NCBI GenBank assembly: GCA_013812465.1
Contig: JACCTK010000294.1
Span: 1-10,367 of the forward strand
Reading direction: 5' to 3'
Length of the DNA: 10,367 nt
DNA from: Actinomycetota bacterium
GTDB taxonomy: Bacteria; Actinomycetota; Thermoleophilia; Gaiellales; Gaiellaceae
Below the pieces are notes generated by a model. The model was not told the origin of the DNA and did no database searches. It worked only from the letters and a program-made list of their open reading frames with translations. Of the stretch, positions 2,349-3,836 are shown in pieces (the first letter of the stretch is position 1; each line of letters begins with the position of its first letter). The position numbers were made by a program, and so were the translations under genes.

Positions 2349-3836
2349 CTACGAACTCACGGCCGTTTTCTTTGCCGTTCGCGCGTTCTTCACGATGAAG
2401 CGCTCACTCTGTTCGTGCGCCTCGTCGTCTCGGATCTGCTTCGGCGGCGACTTCATCAGGTAGGCGCTCGGCGCCTCGAGGGCGCCCGAGATGCCATTGT
2501 TCAGCGCGAGCTTCGCGAGCCGAACGGCGTCGATGACGATGCCGGCCGAGTTCGGCGAGTCCCAGACCTCGAGCTTGAGCTCGACGTTCAGCGGGACGTC
2601 GCCGAAGGACGAGCCCTCCATGCGGATGTACGCCCACTTGCGGTCGGACAGCCACGGGACGAAGTCCGACGGGCCGACGTGGACGTTGTCCGCGCCGATG
2701 TCGTAGTCGAGCATCGACGTCACCGCGTTCGTCTTCGAGATCTTCTTCGACTCGAGGCGCTCGCGCTCCAGCATGTTCCGGAAGTCGGAATTGCCGCCGA
2801 CGTTCAGCTGCATCGTGCGGTCGAGGTGGACGCCGCGATCCTGGAAAAGCGTGGTCAGGACACGATGCGTGATCGTCGCGCCGACCTGCGACTTGATGTC
2901 GTCGCCGATGATGGGGCAGCCGGCGTCCTCGAAGCGCTTCTGCCAGTACGGCTCGCGCGCGATGAAGACAGGCATGCAGTTCACCATCGCGACGCCTGCT
3001 TCCAAGATCTGCTCGGCGTACCACTTCGCCGCAGACTCGGAGCCGACAGGGAGGTAGTTGACGACGACATCCGTGCCGGTCTCCTTGAGGATCCCGACGA
3101 CGTCGTCCGTCTGTCCCGGCGCCTTCTCGACGACCTGCGCCATGTACTTGCCGATGCCGTCGTGTGTCATCCCGCGGGAGACCTTGATGCCGGTCTTCGG
3201 GACGGTGGCGAACTTGATCGTTTCGTTCGGTTTCGCCCAGATCGCGTCGGCCAGATCGACGCCGACCTTGCCCTTGACGACGTCGAAGGCGGCGGTGAAC
3301 TCGATGTCTGAGATGTGGTATCCGCCGAGGTCGACGTGCATGAGCCCCGGGACCGAGTCCTCGGGCTTGGCGTCCTTGTAGTACTCGACCCCCTGCAGAA
3401 GTGAGTTGGCGCAGTTGCCCACGCCGATGATCGCGACGCGCACCTTGTCCTTCGAGCGCGGGCCGTTCTTCGAGCCGTTCGTAGTGGCCATCGTTTCCTT
3501 TCGCGTGCGATTGCTGTGTGAGGGAACGCCGAGCCCGTCGGCGAGCGCGGCGAGAATGACGTCGTTCGCGTTCGCGCCCAGGCGGGTCGCTTCCGCGTGG
3601 ATCTCGCCCTTCAGCTCCTGTGGGACGCGGAGCAGAACAACCGGGCTGGCGCCTGCTAGCACTTTGCGTCGACGACCGCTCGGCGTGTACAGAACACCAA
3701 ACGTGTCCGCAAGGATTCCGGCGGCGACATCGTTGACGTTCGAGCCCCGCCGAGCGACCTCGCGTACCAGCGCGTCCTTGAGCGACGCCGGCATTCGAAT
3801 CAATATGCTCGTTCTGTGCTTTGTGCTAGCAGGCAA
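2349..3836 (-). CDS. ino1: Inositol-3-phosphate synthase with N-terminal tandem ribbon-helix-helix domains
   Basis: Residues 116-495 are a full-length actinobacterial Ino1 (about 380 aa, close to the mycobacterial enzyme). It converts glucose 6-phosphate to inositol 3-phosphate using NAD. Visible marks include VRVAIIGVGNCANSLLQGVE (NAD-binding Rossmann loop), GLMHVDLGGYHISDIEF, GDDIKSQVGATITHRVL, RTMQLNVGGNSDFRNMLER, ERLESKKISKT and SPNSAGIVIDAVR. Unexpectedly, the frame is open for 115 codons upstream, and that part encodes two repeats resembling Arc/CopG ribbon-helix-helix domains: residues 8-48 (ILIRMPASLKDALVREVARR..NVNDVAAGIL) and 65-104 (VVLLRVPQELKGEIHAEATR..ANDVILAAL). An in-frame TAG at 3849-3851 bounds the frame. 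The TTG at 3834-3836 keeps the first beta strand intact, whereas the ATG at residue 15 would remove it. A second start (ATG 3489-3491) with a strong ribosome binding site would yield Ino1 alone, so both a fusion and a short form are possible. The product supplies the phosphatidylinositol synthase encoded just upstream. Confidence 0.93.
   Translation of the reverse strand: MPASTKHRTSILIRMPASLKDALVREVARRGSNVNDVAAGILADTFGVLYTPSGRRRKVLAGASPVVLLRVPQELKGEIHAEATRLGANANDVILAALADGLGVPSHSNRTRKETMATTNGSKNGPRSKDKVRVAIIGVGNCANSLLQGVEYYKDAKPEDSVPGLMHVDLGGYHISDIEFTAAFDVVKGKVGVDLADAIWAKPNETIKFATVPKTGIKVSRGMTHDGIGKYMAQVVEKAPGQTDDVVGILKETGTDVVVNYLPVGSESAAKWYAEQILEAGVAMVNCMPVFIAREPYWQKRFEDAGCPIIGDDIKSQVGATITHRVLTTLFQDRGVHLDRTMQLNVGGNSDFRNMLERERLESKKISKTNAVTSMLDYDIGADNVHVGPSDFVPWLSDRKWAYIRMEGSSFGDVPLNVELKLEVWDSPNSAGIVIDAVRLAKLALNNGISGALEAPSAYLMKSPPKQIRDDEAHEQSERFIVKNARTAKKTAVSS
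3489..3502 (-). promoter_or_regulatory. Internal ribosome binding site and ATG for stand-alone Ino1
   Basis: On the minus strand GAAAGGAAACGATG places an AAAGGA Shine-Dalgarno sequence about five bases before ATG, exactly where the canonical Ino1 protein (MATTNGSKNG...) should begin. The strong site inside a longer open frame suggests that translation starts here, either exclusively or in addition to a start further upstream. Confidence 0.7.
3653..3667 (+). repeat. Third copy of the TGCTAGCA element, inside the RHH coding region
   Basis: The 15-mer CTGCTAGCACTTTGC here is the exact reverse complement of 3833-3847 at the gene's start. It falls in the linker between the two RHH repeats (codons for KVLAGA), so it could be an intragenic operator or a coding coincidence. 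Confidence 0.55.

Follow-up and report, generated by a model that had tools for sequence, protein, structure and literature searches.

Background

Enzymes that regulate their own genes are, to our knowledge, few, and the known example built around a ribbon-helix-helix (RHH) domain is PutA, a flavoenzyme with one RHH unit per chain. Trifunctional PutA carries this domain at its N-terminus and is described as an autogenous transcriptional repressor (PMC5293562). Here we analyse a window of 10,367 nucleotides (the whole stretch of DNA, contig JACCTK010000294.1 of an Actinomycetota bacterium) in which one gene joins a tandem pair of RHH-like units to inositol-3-phosphate synthase (Ino1). Like PutA, its product is a metabolic enzyme whose N-terminus bears the RHH part in the same frame; it differs from PutA in having two RHH units per chain, in that the enzyme is an NAD-dependent inositol phosphate synthase, and in that the sole target found is the fusion's own gene. 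Inos-1-P_synth was the only domain found in a Pfam scan of the fusion, and hence neither proline dehydrogenase nor pyrroline-5-carboxylate dehydrogenase; the fusion may, by analogy, work like PutA, and it is not a member of the PutA family.

Dedicated control of a bacterial ino1 gene has been described in the Corynebacteriales, where the LacI-type activator IpsA acts with myo-inositol as its effector (PMC3899939). We propose dedicated control here as well, with the difference that IpsA is a separate protein, whereas the control domain of the fusion would be part of the enzyme. The RHH antitoxin FitA is reported to bind the control region of its own operon (PMC3920265, PMC3384007). FitA-like antitoxins (PF22513) share the RHH fold with the module described here, and in some genomes their genes are preceded by pairs of the same palindrome; unlike the Ino1 module, they have just one RHH unit and are partnered by a PIN toxin.

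The fusion gene and its RHH module

The sequence-only reading of this DNA had held that the Ino1 frame stays open for 115 codons ahead of the usual start, that this extension encodes two RHH-like units (residues 8-48 and 65-104), and that the two could pair within one chain; all three proposals agree with what we found. A single frame of 495 residues runs from the TTG at 3836 through the stop codon ending at 2349, an in-frame stop codon lies immediately upstream of the TTG, and the Ino1 methionine is residue 116, at 3491 (Table 1). AlphaFold predicts two strand-helix-helix units, the first with a strand at residues 8-14 and helices at 17-30 and 34-46, the second with a strand at 66-72 and helices at 73-86 and 90-102 (module model built on 34 sequences; predicted local distance difference test (pLDDT) 78.8, predicted template modelling score (pTM) 0.67). 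In the model the units pair through their strands, as expected of the RHH (MetJ/Arc) fold, and the nearest solved folds include permuted single-chain Arc (1u9p) and a chain of the F-plasmid relaxosome, which we take to be TraY. Single-chain Arc and TraY, like the fusion, hold two RHH units in one polypeptide; the former is engineered, the relaxosome chain is a conjugation protein, and neither is joined to an enzyme.

Comparison with the RHH, Arc and HicB profile families gave a divided answer. The window module stayed under every cut-off, namely those of Pfam RHH_1 (E 0.044, 14.2 of 20.5 bits), Pfam Arc (E 0.12, 12.7 of 20.4 bits) and NCBIfam YlcI_YnfO_N (NF041551; E 2e-6, 27.8 bits, cut-off 30), while some relatives matched at E<=0.01 (HicB in 7 of 34, Arc in 3 of 34). 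In a profile search against the PDB, the second unit weakly matched the Mnt repressor (E 0.11).

The enzyme part belongs clearly to Pfam PF01658 (E 8.8e-36, 122.8 bits against a cut-off of 27) and aligns with Mycobacterium tuberculosis Ino1 (1gr0) over residues 124-482 (phmmer E 7e-149; Foldseek E 4e-43, 60% identity). The alignment of the 1gr0 chain (367 residues) begins at its residue 8 and covers the enzyme part alone; unlike the fusion, this chain has no RHH part. Because the score against the TIGR03450 mycothiol_INO1 equivalog (547.8 bits, E 1.1e-164) lies under the threshold of 638 bits, we name the enzyme Ino1 and not the mycothiol_INO1 equivalog.

Table 1. Features of the RHH-Ino1 locus (window positions) and of related sites elsewhere (locus positions)
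Feature	Position	Strand	Basis or remark
RHH-Ino1 fusion gene	2349..3836	-	TTG start, 495 aa, about 53.6 kDa, homologues in frame
TTG start codon, long form	3834..3836	-	
RHH unit 1 (residues 8-46)	3699..3815	-	AlphaFold; alignment
RHH unit 2 (residues 66-102), Arc/HicB-like	3531..3641	-	AlphaFold; NF041551 under cut-off; weak Mnt repressor profile match
Linker between module and enzyme (residues 105-127), probably flexible	3456..3524	-	Full-length AlphaFold, pLDDT under 50
Shine-Dalgarno-like GAAAGGA ahead of internal Ino1 ATG (3489-3491)	3496..3502	-	
Inositol-3-phosphate synthase part	2349..3491	-	380 aa, about 41.4 kDa if internally started
Operator-like palindrome 1, TGCTAGCA	3839..3846	.	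Directly ahead of start codon, overlapping -10-like hexamer
Operator-like palindrome 2, TGCTAGCA	3824..3831	.	15 bp from site 1, within codons 2-5
Operator-like palindrome 3, TGCTAGCA	3654..3661	.	Linker between RHH units, codons GTG CTA GCA
-10-like hexamer TAGACT (TANNNT)	3846..3851	-	Adjoins site 1
CDP-alcohol phosphatidyltransferase, upstream neighbour	3893..4573	-	PF01066 E 9.4e-13
RHH antitoxin/PIN toxin pairs with TGCTAGCA sites	L082:1501-2167, L202:1501-2167, L087:275-955, L086 near 293		

Conservation and distribution of the fusion

With residues 1-120 as query, 573 proteins matched at E<=0.01, and the Ino1 Pfam domain was present in 119 of the 120 matches listed; the odd one out (P0074) looks like a frameshifted run-on from the adjacent gene, holding the module and the start of Ino1. 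The query matched in 116 of the 129 genomes of the order searched, and the module is present in 43 of them. We take this order to be probably Gaiellales, because the related proteins P0108, P0123, P0148 and P0152 carry the source name Gaiellaceae. Strong module matches (E below 1e-30) occurred in 43 of 399 genomes sampled across the class, and matches at E<=1e-8 in 3 of 396 sampled across the phylum; all module-bearing genomes from both samples belong to the order searched.

Module and Ino1 start are joined in frame and free of stops in 42/42 loci (the window and 41 genomes; the remaining two of the 43 module-bearing genomes, L131 and L132, are outside this count, as a contig end cuts the module and no Ino1 start lies on the stretch). 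An in-frame TTG, ATG or GTG stands 4-11 codons ahead of the first strand in every one of the 42. Among eight loci compared, identity of the module to that of the window falls to 35-50% in the six most distant. The architecture that the sequence-only reading had proposed to seek in related genomes is thus there, and the extension is real; to that reading, which knew of no Ino1 enzyme so extended, can be added that the extension is common in the order (43/129). A stop or frameshift between the parts in relatives, which would have spoken against one chain, was seen in none of the 42 loci, a short protein discussed below being a possible weak exception.

Palindromic sites at the gene start and within the gene

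The 5' end of the fusion gene carries a new palindromic site, TGCTAGCA, of the general form TGMTAKCA. There are three such sites in the window, all within or just ahead of the first 190 bp of the gene, where 0.11 would be expected per 10.4 kb. Palindromes of this type stood near the frame start in all of the first eight fused loci read, and at the corresponding place in none of 13 unfused Ino1 loci. Across the larger set, 41 of 42 fused loci have TGMTAKCA no more than 140 bp 5' of the first strand (the lone exception, L119, has TGCTAGCT instead), and none of 45 loci without the module (one of which spanned 469 bp) has it in the 600 bp next to Ino1; two unfused loci have it about 725 bp from Ino1. 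Both this contrast and the near-uniqueness of paired candidate sites genome-wide (below) support the earlier suggestion that inositol phosphate synthesis is coupled to gene control.

The order and spacing of the sites are variable (15 bp in 15/42 loci, 14 bp in 11/42), and depending on the locus they sit ahead of the start codon, across it, or inside the first codons; this variation suggests that what has been kept is DNA rather than protein sequence. TANNNT directly adjoins the first site in 34 of 42 loci, an arrangement in which protein binding would occlude a -10-like element. A consensus promoter scan found no promoter, and no -35 element was recognised.

The third site lies inside the gene. 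The window and nine relatives share the linker sequence RKVLAG between the RHH units and without exception encode it with GTG CTA GCA, even though CTA makes up 25 of the 1455 leucine codons in the fused frames (ten of them at this linker); L095, the sole relative with a RALAG linker, encodes GCG CTC GCG. The invariable use of a rare codon points to selection on the DNA within the gene. The ten loci are kin, not ten independent events, and the linker motif is absent from the 31 remaining fused loci.

Genome-wide, exact pairs (TGCTAGCA-N3..11-TGCTAGCA) were found in 25 of the 129 genomes, at a single place in each, and all 25 genomes bear the module; 21 of the places are at RHH-Ino1 and four are ahead of PIN-domain toxin-antitoxin pairs. 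Degenerate TGMTAKCA pairs occur at 15 places with N7 spacing (14 at RHH-Ino1) and at 13 with N6 spacing (all at RHH-Ino1), that is, 27 of 28 places for the two commonest spacings combined. Such pairs are missing from all 86 genomes of the order that lack the module; 16 of the 43 module-bearing genomes also have none in these spacings. As far as searched, the paired candidate sites suggest one target, the fusion's own gene. The one N6/N7 pair away from RHH-Ino1 is at G008:C98:2142-2164.

A proposed model of autoregulation

We think it likely that this Ino1 is bifunctional, with an Arc-like module that binds palindromes at its own gene and represses its transcription, and that free Ino1 is made too. 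Repression of its own gene is probable because a DNA-binding module is fused to the enzyme and the matching paired sites are almost only there; DNA binding, repression and the two products we infer from the sequence and the structural model. In the proposed mechanism, the tandem module would form an intramolecular, Arc-like RHH pair, each such pair reading one TGCTAGCA-type palindrome. Ino1 family enzymes are tetramers, and a tetramer could present several RHH pairs to adjacent sites. The module would thereby bind the paired palindromes overlapping the -10 and start region; in some species it would bind a third site as well, 170-185 bp downstream and perhaps by looping. Binding would repress transcription of the fusion gene, and the level of Ino1 would therefore be set by feedback. 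A ribosome site ahead of the Ino1 ATG would yield free Ino1 as well, and mixed oligomers would then be likely. PutA shows, by analogy, that autorepression through an enzyme-borne RHH domain is a design that works. Three things go beyond the sequence-only reading: the operator-like sites, the finding of a single target (the gene itself), and the conservation of an internal ribosome site.

A fuller version, which we offer tentatively and would not expect to hold in every part, joins two starts, free Ino1 and a repressor-Ino1 hybrid in mixed tetramers, a module taken from a FitA-like antitoxin and duplicated so as to work in a single chain, its TGCTAGCA operator taken along with it and now situated partly in coding sequence, and a third operator, in the linker that separates the RHH units, acting by looping, with enzyme abundance or occupancy directly setting the promoter. 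A FitA-like origin is possible because FitA is an RHH antitoxin that binds the control region of its own operon; profile searches give no sign of it (PF22513 did not match the window module and reached E<=0.01 in one of 34 module members).

Three other explanations can be set beside the autoregulation model. The best of these, which we nonetheless regard as unlikely, is that all or most of the Ino1 is made in free form by starting at the internal ATG, while the RHH frame upstream of it is a minor or separate product and the fusion is of little importance. It draws on the aligned Ino1 start, which is ATG in 37 of the 42 fused loci and has GAAAGGA within 24 nt in 33, and on the long form in the window, whose TTG start has no clear ribosome site ahead of it. 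An unused ribosome site should decay across the divergence of the module, so the short form is probably made. A search for short proteins found 57, of which 23 were read, and most of these are pieces running into Ino1 or show reading changes at scattered places; P0162, however, has 101 residues and ends about eleven residues past the module, ahead of Ino1 (four member sequences, longest contig 103 kb; known from protein only), and may be a natural split form of the fusion. Set against this, the frames are joined without a stop in all 42 loci despite divergence of the module to 35-50% identity; a separately acting module should show stops or frameshifts in some loci.

It is a good deal less probable that the proteins binding the TGCTAGCA sites are FitA-like antitoxins acting in trans, while the Ino1 module does something else, such as oligomerisation. 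In four module-bearing genomes, two TGCTAGCA sites 11 bp apart precede RHH antitoxin and PIN toxin pairs, and three of the four antitoxins are FitA-like by Pfam (FitA-like RHH and PIN in L082, L202 and L087; L086 was assigned by eye). Such sites are nevertheless found in only 4 of 129 genomes with the exact-pair pattern, compared with the association of site and module in 41 of 42 loci, and paired sites are absent from the genomes of the order that lack the module. That the joined frame is an artefact of assembly or annotation, as the resemblance of some short protein matches to frameshifted fragments might hint, is refuted by the breadth of the architecture across many separate genome and metagenome records.

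Origin and significance of the fusion

Among the 75 sequences of an Ino1 tree, 34 bear the module; these rows do not form one clade and need seven changes. This fits a single gain at the base of the group followed by several losses; alternatively, the module may have spread by transfer. Loci without the module are also without the site, but module and site are linked, and a test on independent pairs has three pairs only, which is too small a number to carry weight.

Gaiella occulta is reported to grow on myo-inositol (PMC6741124), and stopping synthesis when inositol is present would therefore make sense. If the autoregulation model is true, the locus would join PutA as the second, independent case of an enzyme fused to RHH units; with its built-in single-chain RHH pair and simple conserved operator, it would be a clean natural feedback part. 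It would also provide an explanation, open to testing, for the setting of inositol supply in a group of actinobacteria of which few are cultured, and would suggest a route by which DNA-binding parts of toxin-antitoxin systems are reused in metabolism.

Gene neighbourhood and other observations

The genes next upstream of ino1, on its own strand, encode a CDP-alcohol phosphatidyltransferase, which possibly uses the inositol phosphate, and a PAP2 protein (3893-5307, minus strand). By eye, the upstream DNA of several unfused relatives resembles the end of the same phosphatidyltransferase, nearly reaching Ino1. At L012, an Ino1 locus without the module, the 60 bases immediately ahead of the Ino1 start (4001) hold a long inverted repeat, ATCGCATTCCTGCTATA ... 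TATAGCAGGAATGCGAT, which surrounds one Shine-Dalgarno-like GGAGG and lies just ahead of a second; it is possibly an alternative control of ino1.

Apart from the fusion, L133:522-998 (minus strand) is a frame of 159 residues with a C-terminal HicB/RHH domain, and open frames of similar size with weak RHH matches recur across many genomes of the class. Elsewhere in the window, a single frame at 270-1997 (minus strand) combines a glycosyltransferase family 4 N-terminal domain with a PHP domain, and genes for EamA-type transporters form a tandem pair at 8185-9321 and 9328-10173 (plus strand), with a third at 5454-6401.
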